The notes under the pieces are model-generated. The model was not told the origin of the DNA. It made no database searches and saw only the letters and a program-made list of their open reading frames with translations. A stretch of DNA of 64,000 bases, from NCBI RefSeq assembly GCF_027497255.1, contig NZ_CP114903.1, forward strand, positions 5,890,001 through 5,954,000, in the 5' to 3' direction. Position numbers and translations under genes: made by a program. Source of the DNA: Micromonospora sp. WMMD882. Lineage in GTDB: Bacteria > Actinomycetota > Actinomycetes > Mycobacteriales > Micromonosporaceae. This document shows positions 26,828 through 44,283 of the stretch, piece after piece (position 1 is the first letter of the stretch; the number at the start of each line of letters is the position of its first letter).

Positions 26828-26841
26828 TTAACCATCGCTAA
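26828..26841. promoter_or_regulatory. Candidate acyl-CoA regulon operator, site A
   Basis: TTAACCATCGCTAA matches TKARCGATCGYTMA at 13 of 14 positions and is flanked by CC and GG, extending the dyad. It ends 11 bases before the -10 TAGGGT (26853-26858) of the 3-hydroxybutyryl-CoA dehydrogenase gene, so a bound protein would block the promoter. Related sites are at 34637, 42005 and 44270. Confidence 0.6.
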
Positions 26842-26852
26842 GGCGCGCCCGC

Positions 26853-26858
26853 TAGGGT
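26853..26858 (+). promoter_or_regulatory. -10 element of the 3-hydroxybutyryl-CoA dehydrogenase gene
   Basis: TAGGGT, with TTAACC at 26828-26833 as a possible -35 (19-base spacer) inside the operator. The leader would be about 35 bases. Confidence 0.45.
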
Positions 26859-26899
26859 GCGGGGGAGAGCAATCGACACCCAGGCGAGGGAGAGAACAG

Positions 26900-27748
26900 A
26901 TGGCGGGTCGACTCGCGGTCGTCGGGGCCGGGCTGATGGGTTCGGGCATCGCCCAGGTGGCGGCGCAGGCCGGCTGGCAGGTGACCCTGCGGGACCTGGA
27001 CGACGCGGCCACCGCGCGCGGTCTCGACGGCATCCGGCGGTCGCTGGAGAAGTTCGCCGAGAAGGGCCGGATCGAGGCGTCCGAGGTCGAGGCGACGCTG
27101 GGCCGGATCACCCCGACCACCGAGCTGGAGGCCGCCGCCGACGCGGACCTGGTGGTGGAGGCGGTCTTCGAGCGGCTGGACGTCAAGCAGGACGTCTTCC
27201 GGGCGCTGGACAAGATCTGCCGGGCCGACGCGGTGCTGGCCACCAACACCTCGGCCATCCCGATCACCCAGATCGCCGCGGTGACCGGGCGGCCGGAGTC
27301 GGTCGTCGGCACGCACTTCTTCTCGCCGGTGCCGATGATGAAGCTCTGCGAGCTGGTGCGCGGCTACAAGACCAGCGACGCGACGCTGGCCACCGCGCGG
27401 GCGTTCGCCGAGGAGATCGGCAAGACGGTCGTGGTGGTCAACCGGGACATCGCCGGTTTCGTCACCACCCGGCTCATCTCCGCGCTGGTGGTCGAGGCGG
27501 TGCGGCTCGTGGAGTCCGGGGTGGTGTCGCCGGAGGACCTGGACACCGCCTGTCGGCTGGGCTTCGGGCACGCCATGGGCCCGCTGGCCACCACCGACCT
27601 GACCGGCGTGGACGTGCTGCTGCACGCCTCGCGCAACATCTACACCGACACCGGCGACGAGAAGTTCTTCCCGCCGGAGCTGCTCCAGCGGATGGCCGCC
27701 GCCGGCGACCTGGGCCGCAAGAGCGGCCGGGGCTTCTACTCGTACTGA
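26900..27748 (+). CDS. 3-hydroxybutyryl-CoA dehydrogenase
   Basis: Interconverts acetoacetyl-CoA and 3-hydroxybutyryl-CoA with NAD(P)H. 282 residues, the usual length. Rossmann GAGLMGSGIAQ at 9-19, the catalytic His at 139 in GTHFFSPVPMMKL, and the C-terminal domain ending GRKSGRGFYSY. ATG 26900 follows GGGAGAG. Its promoter carries operator site A. Together with the thiolase at 42056 it would link acetyl-CoA to C4 acyl-CoAs. Naming as FadB2-like is possible. Confidence 0.92.
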   Translation: MAGRLAVVGAGLMGSGIAQVAAQAGWQVTLRDLDDAATARGLDGIRRSLEKFAEKGRIEASEVEATLGRITPTTELEAAADADLVVEAVFERLDVKQDVFRALDKICRADAVLATNTSAIPITQIAAVTGRPESVVGTHFFSPVPMMKLCELVRGYKTSDATLATARAFAEEIGKTVVVVNRDIAGFVTTRLISALVVEAVRLVESGVVSPEDLDTACRLGFGHAMGPLATTDLTGVDVLLHASRNIYTDTGDEKFFPPELLQRMAAAGDLGRKSGRGFYSY

Positions 27749-27778
27749 GCGGGCCTCCACCCGTACCGGGCGGGGGAG

Positions 27779-28624
27779 TCAGCCGTCGCGACGGGTGGTC
27801 CAGCGGAAGGTGGTGAGGCAGAGCAGCAGCCCGAGCACGCACCAGGCGACGAGGACCAGGGCGACCCGGTCGAGCTCGAACGAGCCGCCCGGTTCCCGCG
27901 CGCCGAAGCTCTCCGGCAGGAACACCGACCGCAGGCCCTGGCACATCCACTTCAACGGGAACAGGGCGGCGACCTGCTGCATCCAGCTCGGCAGGCTGGT
28001 GAAGACGAAGAACACCCCGGAGATGAACTGGAGCACCAGGGCCACCGGGGTCACCACCGCGGAGCCGCTGCGGGCGGTGCGGGCCAGTGACGAGATGGCG
28101 ATGCCGCACAGGGTGCAGGCGGTGACGCCGAGCACGGAGACCCAGCCGAAGGTGAGCCACTTCGCGGCGGTGCCGGGCAGCTCCAGGTCGAACAGCGCGA
28201 CCGAGACGGCGAGCAGCAGCGCCGTCTCGGCCACGCCGATCACCACCACCATGATCACTTTGCCGGCGAACCACACCCACTTCGGCATCGGCGTGCCCCG
28301 GTAGCGTTTGAGCACCCCCCGGTCCCGCTCGATCGGGATCCAGATGCCCAGGTTCTGGAAGCTCACCGTCATCAGCCCGGCGGCGATCATGCCGGTGACG
28401 AAGTACTGGGTGTAGCTGACCCCGGGGGCGATCTCGTCGTCGAAGATCGCCGCGAAGATCAGGATCATGATGACCGGGAAGCCCATCGTGAACACGACCG
28501 ACTCCCGGCTGCGCAGGAACTGGGTCAGCTCCAGCCGGCCCTGGCGCAGCCCGAGGGCGACCGGGCCGATCCGACGGCCGCGGTCCGCGGCGGCGGGCGC
28601 GACCGGCTTCGTGGTGGTGGTCAT
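27779..28624 (-). CDS. ABC-2 type exporter permease
   Basis: 281 residues with six predicted membrane helices and the ABC-2 motif region near WIPIERDRGVLKRYRGTP (about 102-119). Partner of the ATPase coded just upstream; its ATG overlaps the ATPase stop by 4 bases, so they are translationally coupled. DrrB-like drug or lipid export is the nearest analogy; the substrate is unknown. Confidence 0.88.
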   Translation of the reverse strand: MTTTTKPVAPAAADRGRRIGPVALGLRQGRLELTQFLRSRESVVFTMGFPVIMILIFAAIFDDEIAPGVSYTQYFVTGMIAAGLMTVSFQNLGIWIPIERDRGVLKRYRGTPMPKWVWFAGKVIMVVVIGVAETALLLAVSVALFDLELPGTAAKWLTFGWVSVLGVTACTLCGIAISSLARTARSGSAVVTPVALVLQFISGVFFVFTSLPSWMQQVAALFPLKWMCQGLRSVFLPESFGAREPGGSFELDRVALVLVAWCVLGLLLCLTTFRWTTRRDG

Positions 28625-29469
28625 CGGTGTCCGATCATCCGCAGGTAGACGTCTTCCAGGGTGGGCCGGGTCACGGTGAGGCCGGGCACCTCGCCGCCGA
28701 AGCGTGCGGCCAGCTCGGCCACCAGCGCCGTCGGCGTCGCGCTCTGCGCCCGTTCCACCCCACCGCCGGGGGTACGCCAGGAGACCGTCGCCAGCGCCTC
28801 CTGCCGGTCGCCGAGCCGGGCCGGGGGAGCGACCGCCACGATCCGGCCGGCGGCGATCACCCCGACCCGGTCGGCGAGCGCCTCGGCCTCGTCCAGGTAG
28901 TGCGTGGTCAACAGGATGGTGGTGCCGGCGGCGCTGAGGTCGCGGATCAGCTCCCAGAACTCGCGGCGGGCCTCCGGGTCGAAACCCGTGGTCGGCTCGT
29001 CGAGGAAGAGCAGCTCGGGGCGACCGACGATGCCCAGGGCGACGTCCAGCCGACGCCTTTGGCCGCCGGAGAGGGTGTGCGTACGCGCGCCGGCCTTGCC
29101 GCCCAGCCCGACCCGCTCGATCACCTTGACCGGGTCGTCGGCCTGCGGGTAGAAGGCGCTGAAGTGGCCGACCACCTCGCGTACGGTCAGCTCGTCGAAC
29201 TCGCCGGCGCCCTGGAGCACGATGCCGACCCGGGCCCGCCAGTCCGGCGTGGGTCGGGCCGGGTCGACGCCGAGGACGCTCACCTCACCGGCGTCCCGCC
29301 GGCGGTAGCCCTCCAGGATCTCCACCGTCGTGGTCTTGCCGGCGCCGTTCGGGCCGAGCAGGGCGAACACCTCGCCACGGCGGACCGCCAGGTCCACCCC
29401 GGCCACCGCCACGTTGTCGCCGTACGCCCTGCGCAGCCCGCGTACCGAGATGGCCAGCCCGTCGTCCAT
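28621..29469 (-). CDS. ABC transporter ATP-binding protein, DrrA-like
   Basis: 282 residues. Walker A GPNGAGKTTT (about 39-48), signature LSGGQRRRLDVA (about 137-148), Walker B LLFLDEPTTGFD (about 156-167), then an H-loop (TTHYLDEAEALADR). Drives the adjoining permease. CACACT 6 bases before the ATG may be a leaderless -10. Confidence 0.92.
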   Translation of the reverse strand: MDDGLAISVRGLRRAYGDNVAVAGVDLAVRRGEVFALLGPNGAGKTTTVEILEGYRRRDAGEVSVLGVDPARPTPDWRARVGIVLQGAGEFDELTVREVVGHFSAFYPQADDPVKVIERVGLGGKAGARTHTLSGGQRRRLDVALGIVGRPELLFLDEPTTGFDPEARREFWELIRDLSAAGTTILLTTHYLDEAEALADRVGVIAAGRIVAVAPPARLGDRQEALATVSWRTPGGGVERAQSATPTALVAELAARFGGEVPGLTVTRPTLEDVYLRMIGHR

Positions 29470-29525
29470 GCCTCAAGTGTGCGACCTGCGCGGCGGGGCC
29501 CGGTCGGCGGGGCGCGGGCCGGGCG

Positions 29526-29813
29526 TCAGGCCGGCGCGTAGGTGAGGCAGTCGGCCGTCTCCTGGCCGACCTGGATCCCCGGCGCGCGGCACTCCAGCTC
29601 CGAGTTGTGCCGGCAGTCGTGCCGCTGGCACGCGCCGACCTGCGCCACCGACATCTCCAGCCCGCCGCGCACCGGCGACTCGACGAACGTGTGGCAGCGG
29701 GCCTGGTCGCTGCTGCCGACCGTGATCGCGAACGCGTGGCAGCCGTTCTGGTTGTACGAGCACCGGGTGACGGTGCAGTCCTCCACCCGGGGCATCTCGA
29801 CTCCGGTGCTCAT
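29526..29813 (-). CDS. Small Cys-rich protein with two DUF1540 repeats
   Basis: 95 residues with eight cysteines in two similar halves (VEDCTVTRCSYNQNGCHAFAI and VGACQRHDCRHNSELECRAP). This matches two DUF1540 modules, thought to bind a metal such as zinc. ATG follows AGAGGAGG. Upstream sequence is AT-rich with TAATAT, a plausible -10. Function unknown. Confidence 0.8.
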   Translation of the reverse strand: MSTGVEMPRVEDCTVTRCSYNQNGCHAFAITVGSSDQARCHTFVESPVRGGLEMSVAQVGACQRHDCRHNSELECRAPGIQVGQETADCLTYAPA

Positions 29814-29865
29814 GTCCGGCCTCCTCTGGTCAGTAAAACCAGATATTAGGCTTATGTCGCTTCTG

Positions 29866-30792
29866 CTACCCGGTTTCCGGCCGATCGTCCCCGGTTCGGA
29901 GCACCTCCGACAGCGGCGCCGGTCGCAGACCCCGTTCGGCCAGCCCGGCCAGGATGTGCGGCAGCGCCTCGTCGGTCATCGGCGCGTTCGCCTCGGTCAC
30001 GTGCAGCACGATCACCGAGCCGGGCCGCGCCTGGTCCAGCACCGCCCGGACGATCGGCCGCCACGCGGTGGCGAACGGGTCCCCGCTCACCACGTCGCCG
30101 TCGACCACGGTCGTGCCGAGCGACGTCAACGCCGCCAGCGCCGCCCCGTCGTGGCAGAGCCCGGGAAACCGGAAGTACCGGGTCTGCCGTCCGCCGTACG
30201 GCTCGATGAGCGTGAACGTCCGCGCCACGTCCCGGGTCATCTCCGCCGACGGGATCCGGGGCAACCCGTAGCAGTCGGCGGTGAAGGCCAGGTGCCCGTA
30301 GCTGTGGTTGGCCAGCTCGAAGCGGGGGTTGCCGGCCAGTCGCCGGGTCACCTCCGGATACCGCTCGACCCACTTGCCGGTGAGGAAGAAGGTCGCCGGC
30401 ACCTGTTCCCGTTCCAGCAACTCGATGATCCGCAGGTTCGCGTACGACCGCGCCCGGCCGGAACGCAACTGGTAGAGCATCGCGTCGGTCATGTCCGCGT
30501 CGAAGGTGAGCGCCACCCGGTCGCCGGTGCGGGGACCGTGGTCGACCACCGGCGGCCGGGTGCCGGGGCGGGTCGCGCCGGGCAGCCCCGCCGGGCCCGA
30601 CGGCGACGGCCCCGGGGAGCCGGCCGCCGGACGCCGGTCGGCGTCGCCCGACGCGTTCCCCGGGGCCGGCGGGGTCTGGCCGCCCCAGGCGCCCACCTCG
30701 ACCAGCCGCCGTTCGCCGGCACACCCGGCGGCGGCGGTCACCGCGGCTAGGACGAGCGCGGCCAGGAGAACGTGGGTCTTCTTCGCGAACAC
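29866..30792 (-). CDS. Polysaccharide deacetylase-family lipoprotein
   Basis: 308 residues from GTG 30792. A signal peptide ends at a lipobox-like TAAAGC with C24, so it is probably anchored on the outer face of the membrane. A Gly/Pro-rich spacer precedes the NodB domain: LTFDADMTD with the catalytic Asp (about 105-113) and the metal-binding NHSYGH (about 165-170). It may deacetylate peptidoglycan or other N-acetyl polysaccharide. The lipobox lacks the usual Leu at -3, so lipidation is less certain. Confidence 0.82.
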   Translation of the reverse strand: MFAKKTHVLLAALVLAAVTAAAGCAGERRLVEVGAWGGQTPPAPGNASGDADRRPAAGSPGPSPSGPAGLPGATRPGTRPPVVDHGPRTGDRVALTFDADMTDAMLYQLRSGRARSYANLRIIELLEREQVPATFFLTGKWVERYPEVTRRLAGNPRFELANHSYGHLAFTADCYGLPRIPSAEMTRDVARTFTLIEPYGGRQTRYFRFPGLCHDGAALAALTSLGTTVVDGDVVSGDPFATAWRPIVRAVLDQARPGSVIVLHVTEANAPMTDEALPHILAGLAERGLRPAPLSEVLRTGDDRPETG

Positions 30793-30871
30793 CGGGAGAT
30801 GATTTCAGGGCCCGGCCCGCGCCGGTCGCCGCCGAACGGCTGATTTCCCGCCCCGACGGCCGGGCCCGGCT

Positions 30872-30997
30872 CAGCGTGGACCTGCCGGCTTGGCCGGCTC
30901 AGCGGTGGACCTGCCGGCTTGGCCGGCTCAGCGGTGGACCTGCCGGCTTGGCCGGCTCAGCGGTGGACCTGCCGGCTTGGCCGGCTCAGCGGTGGCC
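30872..30997. repeat. 29-bp tandem repeat, about four copies
   Basis: Copies start at 30872 (28 bases), 30900, 30929 and 30958, with a partial fifth to 30997. Each contains GCCGGC-ttg-GCCGGC, a small hairpin. The array ends over the stop codon of the DUF4126 gene. The repeats are head-to-tail without spacers, so it is not a CRISPR array. Confidence 0.92.
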
Positions 30998-31591
30998 GAC
31001 CGGCCGGCGGGCCCGCCGGCGTTCGGTCCGCCGCCGGACGACCCAGCCGACGAAGAGCGCCAACCCGGCCAGGAACACCAGCACCAGCACCGGCAGCAGG
31101 ATCGCCACGACCGACATCACCACGCTGGCGGCGTCCTCGGCGGTGCTGGCGACGGGCGCGCCGACCCCCGCCGTGGTGGCGTTGACCACCGGCCGGGCCG
31201 CGGCCTTCACCAGGTGCACGCCCAGCGCGATCAGCACCCCCACCACGACCGGCGCCCAGCCGGGCGAGGAGAAGAACCCGCCCGGGTCGTCGACCGTGAC
31301 GGTCTCCGCGCCGGCGCCCGCCCCGAACGCCAGCCCGCCGGCGGTCGGCCGGACCACGGTCTGCACCACGTCGTTGAAATGGTCGACCACCGGGACCTTG
31401 TCGGCGACCACCTCCACCGCCAGCAGCACGGCCAGGATCGCGATGACCCAGCCGTCACCCAGCCACTGCCAGCCGGCGGGCAGGTCGAGCAGGTCGGTGT
31501 AGCGGGCGAGCAGGCCGACGGTGAGCAGCGGAACGTAGGCGTTCAGCCCGGCCGAGGCGGCGAGCCCGGTGCCGGTGAGGAGTTCGAACAC
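30986..31591 (-). CDS. DUF4126 membrane protein
   Basis: 201 residues with four to five hydrophobic segments and the DUF4126 pattern near the start ([20 protein letters not shown]). The C-terminus is strongly basic ([12 protein letters not shown]). GTG 31591 has GATCCT 6 bases upstream. It is divergent from nucS with 71 bases between. Function unknown. Confidence 0.8.
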
Positions 31592-31650
31592 CCGTCCAGG
31601 ATCGCACCGGCGCGCCAGCGGTGCGCGCGGGCGACCTGCGGCGGCTCCGC

Positions 31651-31656
31651 TACCCT
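31651..31656 (+). promoter_or_regulatory. -10 element of nucS
   Basis: TACCCT 6 bases upstream of the GTG at 31663; fits a leaderless transcript and fixes the start. Confidence 0.5.
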
Positions 31657-31662
31657 CGTCGG

Positions 31663-32322
31663 GTGCGTCTGGTGATTGCGAAGTGCTCGGTGGACTACGT
31701 CGGACGGCTCTCGGCCCACCTGCCGCCGGCCACCCGGCTGTTGATGGTGAAGGCGGACGGGTCGGTCTCGATCCACGCCGACGACCGGGCGTACAAGCCG
31801 CTGAACTGGATGAGCCCGCCCTGCCGGTTGGAGGAGGCCCCCGGGGTGTGGCGGGTGGTGAACAAGGCCGGCGAGGAGCTGCGGATCACCCTGGACGAGA
31901 TCTTCCAGGACACCTCCTACGAGCTGGGCGTCGACCCGGGGCTGCGCAAGGACGGCGTCGAGGCGCACCTGCAGGAGCTGCTCGCCGCCAACCCGGAGAG
32001 CCTCGGCCCCGGGTACACGCTGGTCCGCCGGGAGTACATGACCGCGATCGGCCCGGTCGACCTGCTCTGCCGGGACGCGAACGCCGGCGCGGTCGCCGTC
32101 GAGGTGAAGCGGCGCGGGGACATCGACGGCGTGGAGCAGCTCACCCGGTACCTGGAGCTGATGAACCGCGACCCGCTGCTCGCCCCGGTCACCGGGGTGT
32201 TCGCCGCGCAGGAGATCAAGCCGCAGGCCCGGGTGCTCGCCACCGACCGGGGCATCCGGTGCGTGGTGGTCGACTACGACAAGCTGCGCGGCATCGAACG
32301 TGACGAGTTGACGCTGTTCTGA
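31663..32322 (+). CDS. nucS: Mismatch-specific endonuclease NucS (EndoMS)
   Basis: Cuts both strands at mismatches; provides MutS/MutL-independent mismatch repair in actinobacteria. 219 residues from GTG 31663. N-terminal DNA-binding half; C-terminal PD-(D/E)xK nuclease with GPVDLLCRD and [16 protein letters not shown] (catalytic Asp, Glu, Lys). The protein ends in DELTLF, resembling the clamp-binding tail reported for related NucS proteins. Confidence 0.93.
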
Positions 32323-32358
32323 CTGCTCCCGGCACCGGGCGGTCAGGCTGCCGGCGGG

Positions 32359-33855: not shown

Positions 33856-33862
33856 GGGCGGA

Positions 33863-33868
33863 AGTCTA
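33863..33868 (-). promoter_or_regulatory. -10 element of the aldehyde dehydrogenase gene
   Basis: TAGACT on the minus strand, 7 bases from the ATG at 33855. Confidence 0.55.
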
Positions 33869-34082: not shown

Positions 34083-34640
34083 ATGGTGGAGCACCCGGAA
34101 TTGCAGCCAGTGCTGACGGTGGCCGGCGGGCCGATGCGGGGCGCCCGTTTCCGGCTGCGCTCCGGCGCGCTGGTGATCGGTCGCGCGCCGACGGTGGACA
34201 TCGCCGTCGACGACCCGCACCTGAGCCGGCAGCACGCGGTCGTCCGGCTGACCGGTGAGCTGACCACCCTCAACGACCTGGGCTCGACGAACGGCACCTG
34301 GCTGAACGACCGCCGGATCACCGACGTGGAGCCGCTCACCGACGGGGACGTCATCCGCGTCGGCCGCACCGAGCTGCGGTTCTTCGACCCCGGCGTGGCC
34401 CGGACCGACCCGGTGGGGCTGACCTTCGGCGTGCTGCGTCGACACCAGCGCCCGACGCTGCCGCTGCCGGTCGCCACACCCCCCGCGCACCGTGCCGTCG
34501 CCGGGGACGCCGGCCACCGCCCCGCCGGGGACGCCGGCCACCGCCCCGCCGGGGACGCCGGCCACCGCCCCGCCGGGGACGCCGGCCACCGTGTGTCGGC
34601 GGTCCGGCAGCCCGTGGCAGACTCGCGCGCAGAACCTTAG
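34083..34640 (+). CDS. FHA-domain protein
   Basis: 185 residues from ATG 34083 (GGAGGGG about 9 bases upstream). One forkhead-associated phosphothreonine-binding domain with GRAPTVD, DDPHLSRQHAVV and GSTNGTWLND (about 33-85). The C-terminal tail holds four GDAGHRPA repeats from a 24-bp minisatellite and is probably disordered. Likely an adaptor for Ser/Thr kinase signalling. The stop codon lies inside operator site B of the next gene. Confidence 0.85.
   Translation: MVEHPELQPVLTVAGGPMRGARFRLRSGALVIGRAPTVDIAVDDPHLSRQHAVVRLTGELTTLNDLGSTNGTWLNDRRITDVEPLTDGDVIRVGRTELRFFDPGVARTDPVGLTFGVLRRHQRPTLPLPVATPPAHRAVAGDAGHRPAGDAGHRPAGDAGHRPAGDAGHRVSAVRQPVADSRAEP
34500..34592 (+). repeat. 24-bp in-frame tandem repeat in the FHA gene
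   Basis: Four almost identical copies begin at 34500, 34524, 34548 and 34572. Because 24 is a multiple of three, copy-number change would keep the frame and alter only the GDAGHRPA tail. Confidence 0.92.
34618..34623 (+). promoter_or_regulatory. -10 element of the fused dehydrogenase gene
   Basis: CAGACT within the 3' end of the FHA gene; transcription would begin near 34630, just before operator site B. Confidence 0.35.
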
Positions 34641-34650
34641 CGACCGTTCA
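34637..34650. promoter_or_regulatory. Candidate acyl-CoA regulon operator, site B
   Basis: TTAGCGACCGTTCA matches TKARCGATCGYTMA at 13 of 14 positions. It lies directly after the predicted transcription start and 31 bases before the GTG of the fused 3-hydroxyacyl-CoA dehydrogenase. Confidence 0.6.
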
Positions 34651-34680: not shown

Positions 34681-36357
34681 GTGGCGCGCGAGTTCACCAG
34701 CGTGGGTGTGGTGGGGCTGGGCACCATGGGTGCCGGCATCGTCGAGGTCTTCGCCCGTAACGGCGTCGAGGTCGTCGCGGTGGAGATCTCCGACGAGGCG
34801 GTGCGGCGGGGCCGCGCCACGCTGACCGGCTCGACCGACCGGGCGGTGACGAAGGGCCGGCTCACCCCCGCCGACCGGGACGCCCTGCTGGCGCGGGTGC
34901 GCTTCGCCGTCGGGCTGGACGCCCTGCGCGCGGTGGACCTGGTGATCGAGGCCGCGCCCGAGCGGCTGGACCTGAAGCGGCGGCTCTTCGCCGAGCTCGA
35001 CCGGATCTGCCGCCCCGACGCCGTCCTCGCCACCAACACCTCGTCCCTGAGCGTCACCGAGATCGCCGTCGCCACCGGCCGGCCGCACCAGGTCGTCGGC
35101 ATCCACTTCTTCAATCCGGCCCCGGTCATGAAGCTGGTCGAGGTGATCCGGACGGTGGTCACCGCGCCCGACGTGGTGGCCGACGTGGAGGCGCTCTGCG
35201 CCCGGCTCGGCAAGGTCGACGTGACCATCGGCGACCGCGCCGGCTTCATCGCCAACGCGCTGCTCTTCGGCTACCTCAACCAGGCCGTCGGCATGGTGGA
35301 GGCCGGTCACGTCAGCCGGGAGGACGTCGACGCCGCGATGCGGGTCGGCTGCGGGCTGCCGATGGGCCCGCTGGCGCTGCTGGACCTGATCGGCGTGGAC
35401 ACCGCGTACGAGATCCTGGACACCATGTACCGGCGGGGCGGCCGGGACCGCCGGCACGCCCCGGCGCCGCTGATCCGGCAGATGGTCACCGCCGGGCTGC
35501 TCGGCCGCAAGTCCGGCCGGGGCTTCTACACCTACGAGCGGCCCGGCTCGGGCCGGGTCGTCCCGGACGACCGGACGCCCACGACGCCGGACCCGGCCGG
35601 TCCGGGTCGGCCGGTCACCCGGGTCGGGGTGGTCGGCGCCGGGGCCCTGGCCGACGGCGTCGTCGAGGTCTTCGCCCGCTCCGGCCACCAGGTCGTCCCG
35701 GTGACCGGTCACCCGCAGGAGCCCGCCGCGCTCGACCAGCTCGCCGACGTCGACCTGGTGGTCGAGGCGGTGACCGGGGACGCGGACGCCAGGCGGGCCC
35801 TGCTCGCCCGCCTCGACGACATCTGCAAGCCCGGCGTGCTCCTGGCGACCACCACCACCGGGCCGGTGATCGAGCTGGCGATGGCCACCCGACGCCCGGC
35901 CGACGTGGTCGGGATGCGCTTCTTCCACCCGGTCCCCGAGGTGCCGCTGGTGGAGATCGTCCGGACCGTCCACGCCTCGGTGGAGACCGTCGCCACCGCC
36001 CGCGCGGTCGCCGCCCGGCTCGGCAGCGCCGGCGTGGTCTGCGGCGACCGGGCCGGCTTCGTCGTCGACGCGCTGCGGTACCCGTACCTCAACGACGCGG
36101 TGAAGATGGTGGAGGCCAACTACTCGACCGTCGACGACGTCGACCACGCGATGAAGCTGGGCTGCGGCTACCCGCAGGGCCCGTTCGAGCTGCTCGACGA
36201 GATCGGGCTGGACGTCGCGCTGGACGTCCAGCGGGCGCTGCACCGCGAGACGCGTGAGCCCGGCCTGGCCCCCGCGCCGCTGCTGACGCAGCTCGTCACC
36301 GCCGGTCGCCTCGGCCGGCGCGTCGGCCAGGGCTTCCGGGAACACCCCGCCGGCTGA
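34681..36357 (+). CDS. Tandem 3-hydroxyacyl-CoA dehydrogenase, second module degenerate
   Basis: 558 residues, two 3-hydroxyacyl-CoA dehydrogenase modules. Module 1 (1-285) is complete: NAD loop GLGTMG (12-17), catalytic H142 in IHFFNP, C-terminal domain ending GRKSGRGFYTY. Module 2 (312-558) has GAGALA (319-324, last Gly changed), lacks about 30 residues after the second Rossmann strand, and has R413 in MRFFHP where the catalytic His belongs. Module 2 is probably non-catalytic, perhaps structural or acyl-CoA-sensing. GTG 34681 follows GGGAGG. Promoter carries operator site B. Confidence 0.88.
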   Translation: MAREFTSVGVVGLGTMGAGIVEVFARNGVEVVAVEISDEAVRRGRATLTGSTDRAVTKGRLTPADRDALLARVRFAVGLDALRAVDLVIEAAPERLDLKRRLFAELDRICRPDAVLATNTSSLSVTEIAVATGRPHQVVGIHFFNPAPVMKLVEVIRTVVTAPDVVADVEALCARLGKVDVTIGDRAGFIANALLFGYLNQAVGMVEAGHVSREDVDAAMRVGCGLPMGPLALLDLIGVDTAYEILDTMYRRGGRDRRHAPAPLIRQMVTAGLLGRKSGRGFYTYERPGSGRVVPDDRTPTTPDPAGPGRPVTRVGVVGAGALADGVVEVFARSGHQVVPVTGHPQEPAALDQLADVDLVVEAVTGDADARRALLARLDDICKPGVLLATTTTGPVIELAMATRRPADVVGMRFFHPVPEVPLVEIVRTVHASVETVATARAVAARLGSAGVVCGDRAGFVVDALRYPYLNDAVKMVEANYSTVDDVDHAMKLGCGYPQGPFELLDEIGLDVALDVQRALHRETREPGLAPAPLLTQLVTAGRLGRRVGQGFREHPAG

Positions 36358-36885: not shown

Positions 36886-37686
36886 GTGAGCGCTCCGATC
36901 CGTGCCTCGTCGATCCTGCCCGGCCGCCGCGAGGACATCGAACTCCACACCGCCGACGGCCTGACCCTGGTCGGTGAGCTGGCCCGGCCGCTGGGCCGCG
37001 ACCCGGTGGCCACGCTGGTCTGCCTGCACCCGCTGCCGACCCACGGCGGCATGATGGACAGCCACGTGCTGCGCAAGGCCGCCTGGCGGTTGCCGGCCCT
37101 GGCCGACCTGGCCGTGCTCCGGTTCAACACCCGGGGCACCGGCAGCGTCCGGGGCACCAGCGAGGGCGCGTTCGACAACGCGGTGGGCGAACGCTTCGAC
37201 ATCGCCGCCGCGATCGAGTACGCCGAGTTCGCCGAGCTGCCGGACGTCTGGCTGCTCGGCTGGTCCTTCGGCACCGACGTGATCCTCAAGCACGGCTGCG
37301 ACCCGGCTGTCGTCGGCGCCGTCCTGCTCTCCCCGCCGCTGCGCTACTCCACCCCCGACGACCTGGCCGTCTGGGCCGGCGACGGCAAGCCGCTCACCGT
37401 GCTGGTGCCCGAGTTCGACGACTACGTGCGCCCGGACGAGGCCCGGGAACGCTTCGCCGCGGTGCCGCAGGCCGAGGTCGTCGGGATGCCCGGGGCGAAA
37501 CACCTCTGGGTCGGCGACGCGGAGAACGTCCTCGACGAGGTGGTCCGCCGGGTCAATCCGGCCGCGCCGACGCCCCTGCCCCGGGTCTGGGACGGCCCGA
37601 TGGAGACCGGCGACGCCAGCGCGTACGCCGACCGGACGGTGGCCGCCTTCGCCGACCGCCCGGTCCCCGGCCCGTCCCGCGACTGA
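36886..37686 (+). CDS. Alpha/beta hydrolase
   Basis: 266 residues. Nucleophile elbow LGWSFGTD (Ser near 128), acid candidate in VPEFDDYV, and His in GAKHLWVGD near 206. An early LHPLPTHGG supplies an oxyanion-hole-like HP motif. GTG 36886 has GACACT 6 bases upstream, though the intervening GGAGGGG could also serve as a ribosome binding site. Resembles the dienelactone-hydrolase/acetyl-esterase side of the fold; substrate unknown. The last codons lie in a direct repeat. Confidence 0.82.
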   Translation: MSAPIRASSILPGRREDIELHTADGLTLVGELARPLGRDPVATLVCLHPLPTHGGMMDSHVLRKAAWRLPALADLAVLRFNTRGTGSVRGTSEGAFDNAVGERFDIAAAIEYAEFAELPDVWLLGWSFGTDVILKHGCDPAVVGAVLLSPPLRYSTPDDLAVWAGDGKPLTVLVPEFDDYVRPDEARERFAAVPQAEVVGMPGAKHLWVGDAENVLDEVVRRVNPAAPTPLPRVWDGPMETGDASAYADRTVAAFADRPVPGPSRD

Positions 37687-37728
37687 CCACCGGCCCGGTC
37701 CCCGGCCCGCGACTGAGCACCGGCCCGG
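37661..37728. repeat. Direct repeat over the hydrolase gene 3' end
   Basis: A ~30-35-base unit with CGGTCCCCGGCCCG and CGCGACTGA begins at 37661 and again at 37696. The first copy holds the last codons and stop of the hydrolase; the second is noncoding. Confidence 0.75.
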
Positions 37729-37752
37729 GGCGGCGGCGCGCCGCGGCGGGCG

Positions 37753-39804
37753 TCAGTCCGACTCCACCTTCACCTTCGTCGGTTTGGCGCTGCGCTCGTC
37801 CGTGGTGGGCTTGCTCGGCCGCTTGCCGCCCTCGCCGGTGCTGGTGATCTTCGTCGGGGTGGCGCCGCGACCACCCTCGCCGGGGACCGCCGCCACGGTC
37901 GGCTCGCCGTCCACGCCGGCGCCGGCGCTGGCCCCGTCCAGGGTGGTGACCGGCTCGGCCACCGGCCGCGTCCGCGGCTTGTCGGGGCCGCCGTCGCCGG
38001 CGATCTCGGCGGTCCGTCGGGTCTCGGCCGGCACGTCGGGCTTGTCGGGGCCGCCGTCGCCGGCGATCTCCGCCGCCCGCTGCGCCTCGGCCTGCGCGCG
38101 GGCCGCCGACGCGCCGGCCTGCCGCACCGAGGCGTCGGTCTCGGCCAGCCGGGTCTGCTCCGCGCCGAGCTGCCGACGGATCTCCTCCAGGGCGCCCTGC
38201 AGGTCGTCGGACTCCTGCCGGGACCGCCAGGTCTCCTGTCGCAGGTCGGCCAGCTCCTGCTGAGCCTGGGCGATCTCCAGCATCACCTGGGCCAACTGCT
38301 GCCGGCCGGCGGCGACCTCCTGCTGGGTGGCGGCCAGGTGCTGCTGGGTCGTCGCGAGGTGCTGCTGGGTGGTGGCCGCGTACTCCTCGAACTGCCGCCG
38401 GGACGCCGCCACGTGCTCGTCGGCCTTGCGGCGTTTCGCGCCGGCCTCCGCCTCGGCCTGCCGCAGCAGGTGGGCGACCTGCTCCTCGGTCTCCCGGCGC
38501 AGCGTCGTCACCTCCTGCTCGGTGCTCTGCCGCAGGGCGGTGACCTCCTGCTCGGTGCTCTGCCGCAGGGTCGCCGCGTCCTGCTCGGCGGCCTGCCGGA
38601 CCGCCGCCGCGCCCTGCTCGATCTCCTCCCGCCGGGCCGTGTACGCCCGCTCCAACTCGGTCTGCCGGGCGGCGTGCTGCCGCTCCAGATCCTCGCGGCG
38701 GGTGGTGAGCTCCCGCTCGGCGGTCTCCCGGCGTCGGGTCAGCTCCCGCTCGGCCGCCTCCCGCTGGCCGGTGACCTCCTGCTCCACCCCGGCCCGCCAG
38801 GCGCCCAGCTCCTGCTGGGTCTGGGTACGCGCCTGGGCCACGTACGCCTCGGTCTCGGTGCGCATGCGGGTCACGTACGCCTCGGTCTCGGCCCGACTGC
38901 GCTTGGCCGCCTCGGCGGTCTGCGCGGTGAGCTGGGCGGCCTCCTGCTCGGCCTTCGCCCGGGTGGCCCGGGCCGTCTCGGTCGCCTGGTCGGTGATCTT
39001 CTTGGCGTCCTGCTGGGCCTTGGCGTGGGTGGCCCGCCCGGCCTCGGTGGCCTGGTCGGTCAGCCGCTTGGCCTCCTGCTGGGCCTTGCGGTGCACCTCC
39101 TTGGCCGCGTCGCGGACCTGCGCCGCCTCCTGCTGGGCCTGGGCCTGTGCCTCCCGGGCCGCCTCGCGCAGCTTCGTCGCCTCCTGCTGGGCCCGGTTGT
39201 GGATCTCCTTGGCGGCGTCCCGGAGCTGGGTGGCCTCCTGCTGCGCCTTGGCCAGGGCGTGCTGCGCGGCCTCGCGCGACCGGGCCGCCTCCTGCCGGGC
39301 CGCCTGGAGGGTGGCCTCCGCCTCGGCCCGTCGGGCGGCGCTCTGCCGCTCCTCCTCGGCCCGCCGGGCGGCCAGGGCGAGCTCGAAGTCCTTCAACGCC
39401 TTGGCGGCCTGCTCGCGGGCCTCCTCGATGATGTGCTCCGCCGCCGCGCGGCGGGCCTCGATCTCCTCGTTCGCGGCGGCGAGGATGTCGTCGGCCTGCT
39501 CCTCGGCGAGGCTGAGGATCTGCTCCACCCGAGGGCCCAGGTGCCGGAAGGAGGCCCGGTCCACCACGCCGACCTGTCTGCGCACGTGCGCCAGGTCGCG
39601 CTGGAGCACCTCCACCTGACCGGCCAGTTTGTGGATCTGGGTGTACGCCTGTTCCCGTTCGGCTGTCAGCGCCGCGATCTCGTGTTCGGCACGGGCCACG
39701 TACCGGTCGACCTGTCGTTTCTCGTACCCCCGCAGGGCGGACTCGAAGCTGGGCTCCGTGGTCACGTCCCCGCCGAGAGCGAACAGTTCCTCGCCGTGCG
39801 ACAT
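37753..39804 (-). CDS. Long coiled-coil polarity/cytoskeletal protein, Scy/FilP-like
   Basis: 683 residues from ATG 39804. The N-terminus has FESALRGYEKRQVDRYV (about 18-34), a DivIVA-like motif, then RHLGPRVEQILSLAEEQADDI and roughly 450 residues of near-continuous coiled coil with repeats such as QQEAxxLRDAAKE. A disordered tail carries a duplicated AEIAGDGGPDKP. In Streptomyces, the filament protein FilP and the tip organiser Scy are coded together beside methylmalonyl-CoA epimerase, the same context as here. Lengths differ from both, so orthology is uncertain. Predicted role: hyphal tip polarity or cell stiffness. Confidence 0.75.
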   Translation of the reverse strand: MSHGEELFALGGDVTTEPSFESALRGYEKRQVDRYVARAEHEIAALTAEREQAYTQIHKLAGQVEVLQRDLAHVRRQVGVVDRASFRHLGPRVEQILSLAEEQADDILAAANEEIEARRAAAEHIIEEAREQAAKALKDFELALAARRAEEERQSAARRAEAEATLQAARQEAARSREAAQHALAKAQQEATQLRDAAKEIHNRAQQEATKLREAAREAQAQAQQEAAQVRDAAKEVHRKAQQEAKRLTDQATEAGRATHAKAQQDAKKITDQATETARATRAKAEQEAAQLTAQTAEAAKRSRAETEAYVTRMRTETEAYVAQARTQTQQELGAWRAGVEQEVTGQREAAERELTRRRETAERELTTRREDLERQHAARQTELERAYTARREEIEQGAAAVRQAAEQDAATLRQSTEQEVTALRQSTEQEVTTLRRETEEQVAHLLRQAEAEAGAKRRKADEHVAASRRQFEEYAATTQQHLATTQQHLAATQQEVAAGRQQLAQVMLEIAQAQQELADLRQETWRSRQESDDLQGALEEIRRQLGAEQTRLAETDASVRQAGASAARAQAEAQRAAEIAGDGGPDKPDVPAETRRTAEIAGDGGPDKPRTRPVAEPVTTLDGASAGAGVDGEPTVAAVPGEGGRGATPTKITSTGEGGKRPSKPTTDERSAKPTKVKVESD

Positions 39805-39981
39805 GCCCCCATCCTCACACGGCCCTGCCCGCGTCGCGGCGATACGCACGGCGACGATGCGACCTGATTCACCCCTGCGGACCCGGGTGTGTCGACAGTG
39901 CCCCGGGCAGCGTACGGCGGGGTGACACCTGTTCGGGTGACACCCCGCCGGACGGCTCTGCCCCGGTCTACGCGCCCGCCG

Positions 39982-41238
39982 TCAGTTGGACTTCTCCTCG
40001 GCCGCCCGGTCGGTCGCGGCCGACCCGTCGGCCGGCTTCGCCGCCTCGGCCTTGGCCGGCGGCACCCCCGGCACGATCCCGGCCAGGCCGGAGAGCATCT
40101 GACCGAGCTGGGAGGTGACCGCGTCCTTCTGACGGGTGAGGTCCTCGACCTCGCGCCGCGCCGCCTGGGTGGTCAGCTCGGCCTCGGTGCGCGCCTCGTT
40201 GAGCAGGCGCTGCGCCTCGGCCTTGGCCTCGTTCAGCGTCTTGTCGGCAAGCGTCTTCGCCTTGTCGACGGTGTCGGCGGCGGTGCGCTCCGACTCGACC
40301 CGGCGGGCCTCGGCGCGCTGCTCGATCTCCTTTGCCCGCTCCTGCGCGGCCCGGGCCCGCTGCTCGGCCTCACCGACCAGCTTCTGGGTCTGGGCGACCT
40401 GCGCGGCGTGCCGCTCGGACTCCTCGCGCTCGGCCTTCTCCCGCCGCTCGGCGAGCTGCAACTCCAGGGCCTGGAGGTCCTTGTCCCGCTTGTCCCGCGC
40501 GTCGGTGAGCAGCTTCGTCGCCTCGGCGCGCTTCTCCTCGGCCTCCCGGGCCGCCTTCGCCCGCTGCTGGGTGATCTCCCGCTCGGCGGTGGCGCGCAGC
40601 GTGGCGACCTCCCGCTCGACGGTCGACTTCAGCTCGGCCACCTCGTGCGCGGTCACCGTACGGAGCTGCTTGGTCTCCCGCTCGGCGTCGGTGCGGAGCG
40701 TGTCAGCCTCCCGCCGGGCCTGCACCCGCACCTCGGCAGCCTCCCGCTCGGCGGTGGTGCGGACGCTGCCCGCCTCCCGCTCGGCGGTGGCCTTCATCGC
40801 CGCCGCCTCGGCGCGCGCCTTGTCGGTGATCTCCCGGGCTTCCAGGCGGGCCGCGGAGAGAATGCCCTCGGACTCGCGCTTGGCCTCGTTGCGGTGGTCG
40901 TTGGCCTGCTCCTCGGCGAGCCGGAGGATCTGCTCGACCCGGGTGCCGAGACCGGAGAGGGTCGGGCGGCTGTTCTCCTCGAGCTGCTTGTTGGTCTCGG
41001 CGAGCTTCTGCTCCAGCGCCGCGAGCCGCTGCTCGGCCTGGCGCAGCCGGCGCTGCGCGTCGTTCATCCGCTGCTCGGCCTCGGCGCGGGCCTGCTCGGA
41101 CTGGGTCAGCGCGGCGGTCAGCCGGCCGATGAAGTCGTCGACCTGCCCGACGTTGTATCCGCGCAGGCCAACGGTGAAATCGGGCTGGGAGTTCGCGTTA
41201 TCGAAGAACGCCAGAGGGGAGGACTGCTGCTGGGGCAT
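39982..41238 (-). CDS. Coiled-coil polarity/cytoskeletal protein, Scy/FilP-like
   Basis: 418 residues from ATG 41238. The N-terminal FTVGLRGYNVGQVDDFIGRL (about 22-41) is DivIVA-like, followed by LGTRVEQILRLAEEQANDHR and about 300 residues of coiled coil rich in Glu, Arg and Ala (REAGSVRTTAEREAAEVR-type repeats). The tail after about 390 is Pro/Ala-rich. Shares the GTRVEQIL-LAEEQA block with its neighbour, so the two are paralogues. Position next to mce matches Streptomyces scy, although Scy is about three times longer. Confidence 0.75.
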   Translation of the reverse strand: MPQQQSSPLAFFDNANSQPDFTVGLRGYNVGQVDDFIGRLTAALTQSEQARAEAEQRMNDAQRRLRQAEQRLAALEQKLAETNKQLEENSRPTLSGLGTRVEQILRLAEEQANDHRNEAKRESEGILSAARLEAREITDKARAEAAAMKATAEREAGSVRTTAEREAAEVRVQARREADTLRTDAERETKQLRTVTAHEVAELKSTVEREVATLRATAEREITQQRAKAAREAEEKRAEATKLLTDARDKRDKDLQALELQLAERREKAEREESERHAAQVAQTQKLVGEAEQRARAAQERAKEIEQRAEARRVESERTAADTVDKAKTLADKTLNEAKAEAQRLLNEARTEAELTTQAARREVEDLTRQKDAVTSQLGQMLSGLAGIVPGVPPAKAEAAKPADGSAATDRAAEEKSN

Positions 41239-41519
41239 TGGCACATACTCGCAGACGCCCCGGGGTGCTTCCAAGAGCGGTGTGGAGCTTTCCGTGTCCT
41301 CTTTACATGGTCAACTTCGCCCGCCGGAGGAGTGCCCGGGACCGGCGATCTTGGCAGCTCCGGGCCGACGCGGACGGTGTCCGGGGTGGGGTGGAAAAGG
41401 GTCGGCGTCCGACACGCCGCCCTTTTCCCCCACCACCGGTATCGATCGATTGGGCGCCGGCGGGCCGGGGGTTAGGAAGGGCCCCCTGCTATGCGCCAGG
41501 CGTTAAGAAGGGGCCTTCC
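41239..41519. other. Gap between mce and the coiled-coil gene
   Basis: 281 bases holding two hairpins (41393-41428 and 41473-41522), both noted separately, and presumably the promoter of the minus-strand coiled-coil gene near 41250-41300. TTTACATGGT (41289-41298) is AT-rich but no promoter was assigned with confidence. Confidence 0.4.
41393..41428 (-). terminator. Hairpin terminator downstream of mce
   Basis: Arms 41393-41408 and 41414-41428 pair through GGAAAAGGG and CGGCGT blocks with a single bulged base and a 5-base loop. A run of T is built into one arm. It lies about 90 bases after the mce stop. Confidence 0.6.
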
Positions 41520-41522
41520 TTA
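41473..41522. repeat. REP-like hairpin adjoining the mce stop codon
   Basis: TAGGAAGGGCCCC (41473-41485) pairs with GGGGCCTTCCTTA (41510-41522) allowing one bulge, around a 24-base loop with CGTTAAGAAG. From memory, similar GGAAGGGCCCC palindromes recur between Micromonospora genes; this needs a genome search. One arm includes the mce stop codon. Confidence 0.55.
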
Positions 41523-41990
41523 CTCTTCGGCGGGCTGGACGAGTTCGACGAGGACGCCGCCGGCGTCCTTGGGGTGGACGAAGTTGATCCGGGAGCCGGC
41601 GGTGCCCCGGCGCGGGGTCTCGAAGAGCAGCCGCATGCCGCGTTCCCGCAGCGCCGCGCAGGCCCGGTCGATGTCGACCACGGTGTACGCGACCTGCTGC
41701 ACCCCGGGGCCGCTACGGTCCAGGAACCTCGCGATCGTCGACTCCGGGGTCAGCGGGGCGAGCAGTTGCACGCGACCGCCGTCGGCGGTCGGGCCGACCG
41801 CCAGCATCGCCTCGCGTACGCCCTGCTCGGTGTTGGTCTCGGTGTGTACGCAGCGCATGCCGAAGACGCGCCGGTAGAAGTCGATCGCCGCGTCCAGGTC
41901 GGCGACCGCCACGCCCACGTGGTCGATTCGGCGGATGCCGATGTCTGTGACGTAGTCCGCAGCGGGCTCGACGGGGAGGTTCTCAGCCAT
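41520..41990 (-). CDS. mce: Methylmalonyl-CoA epimerase
   Basis: Interconverts the (R) and (S) forms of methylmalonyl-CoA. 156 residues, a vicinal-oxygen-chelate fold with metal ligands in IDHVGVAV (His near 24), a central GVQQVAYTV region and a C-terminal VLVELVQP (Glu). ATG 41990 was chosen because CAGACT lies 6 bases upstream (leaderless); the frame continues to 42011. Divergent from the thiolase gene, with operator site C between them. Confidence 0.92.
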   Translation of the reverse strand: MAENLPVEPAADYVTDIGIRRIDHVGVAVADLDAAIDFYRRVFGMRCVHTETNTEQGVREAMLAVGPTADGGRVQLLAPLTPESTIARFLDRSGPGVQQVAYTVVDIDRACAALRERGMRLLFETPRRGTAGSRINFVHPKDAGGVLVELVQPAEE

Positions 41991-41996
41991 GGCGCT

Positions 41997-42002
41997 AGTC
42001 TG
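41997..42002 (-). promoter_or_regulatory. -10 element of mce
   Basis: CAGACT on the minus strand, 6 bases before ATG 41990 and directly next to operator site C. Confidence 0.45.
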
Positions 42003-42004
42003 GC

Positions 42005-42018
42005 CGAACACTCGTTAA
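42005..42018. promoter_or_regulatory. Candidate acyl-CoA regulon operator, site C
   Basis: CGAACACTCGTTAA matches TKARCGATCGYTMA at 11 of 14 positions, the weakest of four sites. It lies in the 65-base gap between divergent mce and thiolase genes, overlapping the upstream promoter region of both. Confidence 0.45.
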
Positions 42019-42055
42019 GGCGTACAGGTTCGGCCACCCCCTCGGAGGCAGGCAC

Positions 42056-43255
42056 ATGGCTTCGGTGATCGTCAGCGGCGCGCGGACCCCGATGGGCCGC
42101 CTGCTCGGCAACCTCAGGGACCTCCCGGCGACGAAGCTCGGCGGCGTGGCGATCAGGGCGGCGCTGGAGCGCGCCGGGGTGGCCCCCGAGCAGGTGCAGT
42201 ACGTCATCATGGGTCAGGTGCTCCAGGCCGGCACGGGGCAGATCCCGGCCCGGCAGGCCGCCGTCGAGGCGGGCATCCCGATGTCGGTGCCGGCGCTGAC
42301 CATCAACAAGGTCTGCCTCTCCGGGCTCGACGCGATCGCGCTGGCCGACCAGTTGATCCGGGCCGGCGAGTTCGACGTCGTGGTGGCCGGCGGCATGGAG
42401 TCCATGACCAACGCCCCGCACCTGCTGCTCGGTCAGCGTGCCGGCCACAAGTACGGCGACGTGACGATGAAGGACCACATGGCGCTGGACGGGCTGACCG
42501 ACGCCTGGGACTGCTGCTCGATGGGGGAGTCCACCGAGCGGCACGGCGTACGGCACGGCATCACCCGCGCGGAGCAGGACGCGTTCGCGGCGGCCAGCCA
42601 CCAGCGCGCCGCCGCCGCCCAGAAGAACGGCCACTTCGCCGAAGAGATCACCCCGGTGATCATCCCGCAGCGCAAGGGCGACCCGCTGGTGATCAGCGAG
42701 GACGAGGGCATCCGCCCGGACACCACCGTCGAGTCCCTGGGCAAGCTGCGGCCGGCGTTCGCCAAGGACGGCACGATCACCGCCGGCAGCGCGTCGCCGA
42801 TCTCCGACGGGGCCGCCGCGGTGGTGGTGATGAGCAAGGCCAAGGCCAAGGAGCTGGGGTTGACCTGGCTGGCCGAGATCGGCGCGCACGGCAACGTGGC
42901 CGGGCCGGACAACTCCCTGCACTCGCAGCCGTCCAACGCGATCGTCCACGCCCTGCGCAAGGGCGGGCTGAGCGTCGCCGACCTCGACCTCATCGAGATC
43001 AACGAGGCGTTCGCCGCGGTCGGCATCCAGTCCACCCGTGACCTCGGCGTCGACCCGGACATCGTCAACCCGAACGGCGGGGCGATCGCCCTCGGCCACC
43101 CGATCGGCATGTCCGGGGCGCGGCTGGTGCTCACCCTGGCGCTGGAGCTGAAGCGGCGTGGCGGCGGCACCGGCGCGGCGGCGCTGTGCGGCGGCGGCGG
43201 CCAGGGCGACGCCCTGATCATCCACGTGCCGGCCGAGGGCGAGCAGGTCAGGTGA
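42056..43255 (+). CDS. Acetyl-CoA C-acetyltransferase (thiolase)
   Basis: Condenses two acetyl-CoA to acetoacetyl-CoA or the reverse. 399 residues. Acyl-enzyme Cys in [12 protein letters not shown] (near 89), NEAF (about 320), [16 protein letters not shown] with the active His, and the second Cys in [11 protein letters not shown] near 382. ATG 42056 follows GGAGGCA. Last codon overlaps meaB by 4 bases. Controlled, by inference, through operator site C. Confidence 0.94.
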
Positions 43256-44241
43256 GCGAGCCGGGCACCGCGACGCCGTCGATCCGGCGCAGTCGGGACG
43301 TGCCGCTGCTGGTGGAGCGGGCCCGCGCCGGTGACCCGCGCGCGGTGGCCCGGCTGATCACCCTGGTGGAGAACGGCGACGAGGCGCTGCCGCAGGTGGC
43401 GGCGGCGCTCGCGCCGTACGCCGGGCAGGCCCAGGTGGTCGGCCTGACCGGGTCGCCCGGGGTGGGTAAGTCGACCACCACCAACGAGCTGGTCCGGGCG
43501 CTGCGGGCGCGCGGCCATCGGGTCGGGGTGCTGGCCGTCGACCCGTCCAGCCCGTTCACCGGCGGGGCGATCCTCGGCGACCGGGTCCGGATGCAGGACC
43601 ACGCCACCGACCCGGGCGTCTACATCCGCTCGATGTCCAGCCGGGGGCACCTCGGCGGGCTGTCGGCGGCCACCCCGCAGGCGGTCCGGGTGCTGGAGGG
43701 CGCCGGCTGCGACGTGGTGCTGGTCGAGACGGTCGGGGTGGGTCAGGCCGAGGTCGAGGTGGCCTCGCTGGCCGACACCACGCTGGTGCTGCTGGCCCCG
43801 GGCATGGGCGACGCGATCCAGGCGGTCAAGGCCGGCATCCTGGAGATCGCCGACGTCTTCGTGGTCAACAAGGCCGACCGGGACGGCGCGGACGCCACCG
43901 TCCGCGACATCAACGGCATGATCGCGCTGGGCGAGCGCGGGCCGGGCCAGTGGCGTCCGCAGGTGGTGCGCGCGGTGGCCGTCCGGGGCGAGGGCGTCGA
44001 CGACGTGGCCGCCGCGATCGACAAGCACCGGGGCTGGCTGGTCGAGCACGGCGAGCTGCGCCGCCGCCGGGAGGCGCGGGCCGCCGCCGAGATCGAGGCG
44101 ATCGCGCTCGGCGCGCTCCGGGCCCGGATCGGCTCACTACGTGACGGTACGGGGCTGACGACGCTCGCCGCGAAGGTGGCCGAGGGCGCCCTCGACCCGT
44201 ACGCGGCGGCCGACACGCTCCTCGCCGAGTTGGGCCGGTGA
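43252..44241 (+). CDS. meaB: MeaB/ArgK-type G-protein chaperone of acyl-CoA mutase
   Basis: GTPase that loads adenosylcobalamin into, and protects, B12-dependent acyl-CoA mutases. 329 residues. P-loop [15 protein letters not shown] (about 63-77), [19 protein letters not shown], an [12 protein letters not shown] switch (about 160-171) and NKAD specificity motif. GTG 43252 overlaps the thiolase stop (GTGA), so translation is coupled. The next gene is its likely client. Confidence 0.94.
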
Positions 44242-44269
44242 CGAGACTACCGGCCGGTACCCGTTCGCC

Positions 44270-44283
44270 TTAGCGATCGTTCA
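44270..44283. promoter_or_regulatory. Candidate acyl-CoA regulon operator, site D
   Basis: TTAGCGATCGTTCA matches TKARCGATCGYTMA at all 14 positions and covers the -35 region of the mutase promoter. It is the best of the four sites. Confidence 0.65.

Follow-up and report, generated by a model that had tools for sequence, protein, structure and literature searches.

The genome of Micromonospora sp. WMMD882 carries four palindromes of similar sequence in front of acyl-CoA genes, and the question raised by this locus is whether they are operators of one regulator and, if so, of which. The stretch analysed (the window: 64,000 nucleotides, G000:C1:5890001-5954000) belongs to a single-contig genome of 6.37 Mb. 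An earlier note on the window had proposed that the sites share one operator sequence, that they define a short-chain acyl-CoA regulon and that an acyl-CoA sensor of the TetR type reads them; these proposals were supported by the comparative evidence given below, and a putative name can be given to the sensor from its sequence. The four palindromes (operators 1 to 4, Table 1) are most likely the operators of one TetR repressor, the Micromonosporaceae orthologue of AccR and of BkaR/Fad35R (G000:C1:4465724-4466347), which would release them in response to short-chain acyl-CoAs.

The window and the whole genome were scanned with the palindrome pattern TKARCGATCGYTMA, and the sites in the window were scored with a matrix built from the mutase sites of other genomes. 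Positions and mismatch counts of the four sites agreed with those reported previously, and their matrix scores (15.2-26.0) compared with 10.3 at the next best window position. That the window holds no other copy, as had been stated, was borne out by the matrix but not entirely by the pattern, which has a further two-mismatch match at 46311, inside a predicted gene. With up to one mismatch, the pattern occurred at seven places in the genome, three of them in the 64-kb window, and the reversed pattern at none. Among 61 Micromonosporaceae genomes (own included) a perfect site was found in 47 and the reversed pattern in one; genome-wide, the motif is thus not at random frequency.

All 68 perfect sites of the other family genomes were classified by their downstream gene. 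Ten of them, of the TGAGCGATCGCTCA type, formed a class of their own. Among the other 58, 36 stand before orthologues of the acyl-CoA mutase gene and 18 before the regulator's TetR gene or another gene with an acyl-CoA, carboxylase or electron-transfer function: TetR (four), carboxyltransferase (four), biotin carboxylases (three), electron-transfer flavoprotein (two), and one each before an acyl-CoA dehydrogenase gene, an isovaleryl-CoA-dehydrogenase-type gene, a crotonyl-CoA carboxylase/reductase gene, an Hbd gene and in a biotin ligase/carboxyltransferase-like intergenic promoter.

Conservation in front of the other genes was assessed with a matrix made from the 36 mutase sites of other genomes only (score cut-off of at least 12, own genome excluded), using the best 30 loci per gene (29 without our own) of the 57, 42, 60 and 57 of 61 genomes with matches to Hbd, the duplicated dehydrogenase, the thiolase and the regulator, respectively. 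A site was present upstream of 20/29 Hbd, 23/29 duplicated-dehydrogenase, 28/29 thiolase and 14/29 regulator-gene orthologues; with the own genome included, the counts were 21, 24, 29 and 14, each of 30. Together with the mutase sites, these counts answer the question of conservation left by the earlier note: the sites are kept upstream of the orthologues of all four targets. None of 300 column-permuted matrices reached the orthologue counts (maxima 12 for Hbd, 5 for the duplicated dehydrogenase, 15 for the thiolase and 5 for the regulator); permutations moving fewer than six of the eight columns were excluded, and a set that allowed near-identical matrices did reach the real count. Shuffled sequences gave 0.13-0.37 sites on average in the same scan. 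Two of the loci end at contig ends: L179 (thiolase, counted as a match at -287) and L122 (Hbd).

The geometry claimed earlier, with sites overlapping the -35 or just after the start, fits the sequence: operators 1 and 4 lie over the -35 region, and operators 2 and 3 just downstream of a -10-like box. A TANNNT motif starts 10-12 nt downstream of operators 1 and 4: TAGGGT at 26853-26858 before hbd and TACACT at 44294-44299 before the mutase gene, each with the operator over the -35 region. Before the duplicated dehydrogenase gene, the -10-like CAGACT (34618-34623) stands 13 nt upstream of operator 2, which would therefore cover the start point; at operator 3, a -10-like TAGTCT (41996-42001) is directed towards the thiolase gene. 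Among the mutase orthologues, TANNNT begins 10-12 nt after the palindrome in 33/36 promoters (3.6 in shuffles), so that the palindrome occupies the -35 region, and 14/20 sites of Hbd orthologues similarly have TANNNT 6-14 nt after the site. At thiolase orthologues the motif lies directly upstream of the site in 27/28 cases, and the palindrome would thus cover the start point. The same upstream arrangement was found at only 5/23 duplicated-dehydrogenase orthologues, and neither arrangement was common at regulator-gene orthologues (TANNNT after the site in 0/14, before it in 1/14). The geometry of the mutase, Hbd and thiolase promoters would suit steric repression. In several relatives (L037, L038, L042, L092) the mutase ATG lies about 6-7 nt past the -10-like box, which suggests leaderless transcripts.

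The candidate regulator is a TetR gene outside the window, beside leucine-catabolic genes. Its product has a TetR_N helix-turn-helix domain (PF00440, 64.2 bits, cut-off 24); NCBIfam gave no above-cut-off name, the best being the SACE_7040 family (225.2 of 250 bits). Biotin carboxylase, HMG-CoA lyase, carboxyltransferase and acyl-CoA dehydrogenase genes lie within about 8 kb; the carboxyltransferase gene and the regulator gene are not divergently arranged. The protein is 92% identical to its Micromonospora chalcea counterpart and was matched once in each of 57/61 family genomes, one of which has a second, weak match. Its best match in the PDB is 4g12 (E 2.4e-39), described as Fad35R in the consulted part of PMC4418694; the authors of the BkaR study call this protein BkaR, Rv2506 (PMC3920632, in the part consulted). 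The regulator and the AccR-like protein of genome G167 are reciprocal best matches (E 2.8e-49 forward, 3.0e-49 back), the next match of the latter in the own genome being 2.2e-10.

When 80 Micromonosporaceae regulator loci were scored, 72 had a matrix hit of at least 15. All 96 such hits precede genes of the regulator's cluster (carboxyltransferase 74, biotin carboxylase 14, TetR 5, acyl-CoA dehydrogenase 2, HMG-CoA lyase 1). On the same loci, 20 permuted matrices (near-identical ones not excluded) gave 0-9 hits, except one with 84. The carboxyltransferase near the regulator (L023:6269-7801) shares 36-39% identity with those in nine relatives outside the family (L314, L317, L319 and others), and the acyl-CoA dehydrogenase beside it 69-78% in most of those relatives; from these identities, the comparison suggests that the carboxylase subunit was replaced.

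Outside the window, one of the seven genomic places (3505251) lies 73 bp before a biotin carboxylase gene and another (4460824) 24 bp before a carboxyltransferase-acyl-CoA dehydrogenase operon. The other two, 4021083 and 4021116, read TTGAGCGATCGCTCAA and form a tandem pair 33-34 bp apart (G000:C1:4021083-4021129, L021) in front of a membrane-protein operon whose last gene encodes a TetR protein. This class recurs before orthologues of the same operon (L057, L085) and before its TetR gene (L066, L090), and the pair was therefore set aside; it is probably the operator of that operon's own TetR. The idea that all seven places form one regulon was accordingly rejected, since these two are operators of another class and stand in front of an unrelated operon.

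In the own genome, the pattern TNARCGATCGYTNA at two mismatches matched 131 places (52 for the reversed pattern). Nine further places were inspected among the matches listed: two touch acyl-CoA genes and the other seven do not. The first of the two, CTTAACGCTCGTTCGG at G000:C1:1464097-1464110 (L029, score 18.4), stands 10 bp upstream of an acyl-CoA dehydrogenase gene and is a possible additional operator of this regulon. The second, at 4278731-4278744 (L025, score 16.1), overlaps the start codon of another 3-hydroxyacyl-CoA dehydrogenase gene; an enoyl-CoA hydratase gene adjoins it, and the near-match there could be a coding coincidence. Places without acyl-CoA genes also scored above 17 (3698414, before a TauE-type gene, 17.4; 2932362, 17.1), so that at this level some calls made by the matrix alone are false or unexplained; a score of 17.7 was also reached by the class-II site at 4021083.

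The outermost base pair of the palindrome differs between the Micromonosporaceae and other families. It is C...G in 34/36 mutase sites. In the families f2, f3, f4, f6, f50 and f51 (f4 and f2 are labelled Streptomyces-like and mycobacteria-like from gene order and operators), 24/26 loci have a G...C exact inner-pattern site before the regulator gene, the exceptions being L353 (a one-mismatch G...C site) and L381 (none). Among 30 Micromonosporaceae regulator loci, none of ten exact sites was G...C; four were C...G and the rest mixed. Because the outer G...C pair is absent, the system is described here as an orthologue with a changed operator and not as a plain AccR/BkaR member.

The recognition helix differs along with the operator: it reads YRHF in 23/26 non-family loci (YKHF in one, unreadable in two) and YHHF in 30/30 family loci, with His instead of Arg. 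This position corresponds to a DNA-contacting residue of TetR. One f27 genome (G091) combines YHHF with C...G sites; a second has YWYF and no site at that setting. We regard as evenly balanced, from these alignments, the proposal that an Arg-to-His change (YRHF to YHHF) went together with a switch of the outer operator pair from G...C to C...G in the Micromonosporaceae, and that the rewritten operator came to cover the mutase, Hbd, duplicated-dehydrogenase and mce/thiolase-meaB promoters. That only 4/10 exact family regulator-gene sites are symmetric C...G counts slightly against it, and with two lineages and many sister species the cause of the paired change is not proven. If the proposal is true, a single sensor would control the short-chain acyl-CoA pool at both ends, where carboxylases feed it and where the B12 mutase drains it, and one helix residue and one operator base pair changing together would provide a natural case of repressor-operator co-evolution.

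The simplest objection is that the sites are chance palindromes of a GC-rich genome, picked by eye. In the window, up to three mismatches gave six matches against a shuffle mean of 9.69 (92 of 100 shuffles had at least six), which is no enrichment. Operator 3 therefore proves nothing by itself, and its significance on its own strength was rejected; it was retained because 28/29 thiolase orthologues conserve it. As an account of all four sites, chance is improbable in the extreme, in view of the excess over reversed patterns in the genome and the family, the failure of all 300 permuted matrices at the orthologue counts and the fixed spacing to the -10 box in the mutase promoters. A more serious alternative accepts the operators as real and shared, and has another TetR or other regulator read the window sites while the AccR-like protein controls its own cluster only. 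In the own genome, neither the AccR-like gene nor the biotin carboxylase gene next to it is preceded by a site (best scores 4.3 and 1.3), 15/29 other family genomes have none before the regulator gene, and the TTGAGCGATCGCTCAA class before another TetR operon indicates that close operators serve other regulators. We nevertheless consider this alternative unlikely: a single palindrome is common to the regulator gene (14/29 other genomes), the carboxylase genes of its cluster and the orthologues of the window genes, and the spacing of the window sites is that of AccR/BkaR operators. An activator or dual regulator at the same sites, aiding the polymerase, is a very improbable third reading. Activator sites can also lie over the -35 region, but the sites here lie either in that region (33/36 mutase, 14/20 Hbd) or just past a -10-like box (27/28 thiolase), and both AccR (PMC10933834) and BkaR (PMC3920632) are repressors in the accessible parts of these reports.

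Several other results weigh against a single AccR/BkaR-type repressor acting through one operator, as do the gaps before the regulator gene and the unenriched three-mismatch matches. The outer G...C pair of the published operator is not kept in the family; 14/61 family genomes have no perfect site; four of the 58 perfect sites (L047, L062, L071, L088) have no acyl-CoA-related gene nearby; and the wider pattern CTKARN6YTMAG is not enriched in the own genome (six matches, seven for the reversed pattern). The score cut-off of 12 was set after a first look at the data, and the family genomes are related, so that the conservation counts are not independent.

Table 1. Predicted operators in the window and the genes behind them (window positions).
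Feature	Position	Strand	Evidence
Operator 1, TTAACCATCGCTAA (predicted)	26828..26841	.	1 mismatch; matrix score 24.1
hbd, 3-hydroxyacyl/3-hydroxybutyryl-CoA dehydrogenase	26900..27748	+	Pfam 3HCDH_N, 3HCDH; best NCBIfam PRK05808, below cut-off
Operator 2, TTAGCGACCGTTCA (predicted)	34637..34650	.	1 mismatch; matrix score 18.5
Internally duplicated 3-hydroxyacyl-CoA dehydrogenase	34681..36357	+	Pfam: two 3HCDH_N, two 3HCDH
mce, methylmalonyl-CoA epimerase, divergent from thiolase-meaB	41520..41990	-	TIGR03081, 138.1 bits, cut-off 114.95
Operator 3, CGAACACTCGTTAA (predicted), between mce and thiolase	42005..42018	.	3 mismatches; matrix score 15.2
Thiolase, acetyl-CoA C-acyltransferase	42056..43255	+	Thiolase_N, Thiolase_C; TIGR01930 above cut-off
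MeaB, mutase-associated GTPase	43252..44241	+	TIGR00750, 338.5 bits, cut-off 240.75
Operator 4, TTAGCGATCGTTCA (predicted)	44270..44283	.	0 mismatches; matrix score 26.0
Acyl-CoA mutase large subunit	44337..46025	+	Pfam MM_CoA_mutase only

Pfam and NCBIfam scans confirmed the genes that had been described behind the sites: a 3-hydroxybutyryl-CoA dehydrogenase, a duplicated dehydrogenase, mce with thiolase-meaB, and a mutase. The start of mce was placed, by reading the sequence, at the ATG at 41990 and not at the GTG at 42011, which lies within the operator. The duplicated dehydrogenase is an internal tandem duplication without a hydratase domain and is present in many relatives. No B12-binding domain was matched in the mutase by the Pfam scan; its best solved relative is 4r3u, the large subunit of 2-hydroxyisobutyryl-CoA mutase (E 1e-144). 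A PduO-type cob(I)alamin adenosyltransferase gene (window 24809-25381, minus strand) lies two genes from hbd, and in one relative (L035) a cob(I)alamin adenosyltransferase gene is divergent from Hbd with a perfect operator in between.

For the preferred reading, in which the AccR/BkaR orthologue acts at the four sites, the following mechanism is proposed. Bound as a dimer, the repressor would block RNA polymerase by covering the -35 region at hbd and the mutase gene, and the start point at the duplicated-dehydrogenase and thiolase genes. An accumulation of short-chain acyl-CoAs (the reported AccR ligands are methylcrotonyl-, propionyl- and acetyl-CoA) would make the repressor let go, and its release would switch on the processing of short- and branched-chain acyl-CoAs by the hydroxybutyryl-CoA dehydrogenase, thiolase, epimerase, MeaB, mutase, carboxylase subunits and acyl-CoA dehydrogenase. 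These bacteria build polyketide antibiotics from short-chain acyl-CoAs. Knowing a repressor by name, together with its operator and six or more target promoters in the genome, would offer a handle on precursor supply in Micromonospora and its relatives. In literature searches (open-licence papers, among the matches listed), no title describing such a regulon in the Micromonosporaceae was found.

Matches to the regulator at E up to 1e-28 were found in 14/148 genomes, other than our own, of a phylum sample. Ten of the 14 loci include a carboxyltransferase gene, and eight have a promoter TTAA-N6-TTAA site at up to one mismatch (seven of the GTTA...TAAC type, one CTTAG-N6-TTAAG); the other six have no such site at that setting, four of them being f14 loci that lack a nearby carboxyltransferase gene. 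In AccR-like promoters, sites of the GTTAA-N6-TTAAC type occur in pairs. When three Streptomyces-like genomes were scanned for exact GTTARN6YTAAC, it occurred at five, eight and seven places (reversed pattern: one, none and one). With GTTAGG-type boxes, which resemble the sites of another regulator, left out, six places were at the regulator promoter and five lay 16-22 bp before enoyl-CoA-hydratase-type genes (Pfam on one). The GTTAGGNNNNCCTAAC boxes (L343 and other Streptomyces-like places), which look like iron-regulator sites, contaminate AccR pattern scans.

Among known systems, the regulator resembles AccR of Streptomyces avermitilis in its sequence (52-53% identity to the AccR-like protein of a Streptomyces-like genome), in its carboxylase, HMG-CoA lyase and acyl-CoA dehydrogenase neighbours and in its short-chain acyl-CoA targets. 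In line with the places in the Streptomyces-like genomes, the accessible text of a review puts the AccR operator GTTAA-N6-TTAAC before accD1A1-hmgL-fadE4, echA8, echA9 and fadE2 (PMC10933834), and methylcrotonyl-, propionyl- and acetyl-CoA are given as its ligands in the accessible text of PMC8546615. The half-site spacing equals that of AccR and BkaR operators, here as TKAR-N6-YTMA. Unlike the AccR operator, the operator here usually has C...G as its outer pair, with a centre that is mostly CGATCG, and its targets add the mutase, hbd, the duplicated dehydrogenase and mce/thiolase-meaB. None of the exact AccR-type sites in the three Streptomyces-like genomes lay at promoters of these added targets (weaker sites were not searched), and the regulon therefore looks enlarged in the Micromonosporaceae.

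BkaR/Fad35R (Rv2506, MSMEG_4718) is the best solved relative and stands beside accD1/accA1 and an acyl-CoA dehydrogenase gene. In the consulted part of its description its operator has the 16-bp core GTTA(N)T(N4)A(N)TAAC, and the protein regulates its own gene and binds as a dimer (PMC3920632); palmitoyl-CoA and tetracycline are given as Fad35R ligands in that of PMC4418694. The system here differs from BkaR in the outer base pair, in a regulator gene that is not divergent from the carboxylase gene and in having no site before its own regulator gene. Compared by description, PccD of Saccharopolyspora erythraea and Mycolicibacterium neoaurum is similar as a TetR repressor of propionyl-CoA carboxylase genes, and in PMC11596240 (accessible part) the M. 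neoaurum protein is said to be homologous to BkaR and AccR; the S. erythraea site, in contrast, is of a T/A-TGACG type (PMC10933834, as far as its accessible text goes) with no resemblance to the operator here. Judged by these sequence comparisons, the regulon is the Micromonosporaceae version of the known acyl-CoA regulon of AccR/BkaR, in which the operator has shifted and targets have been added.

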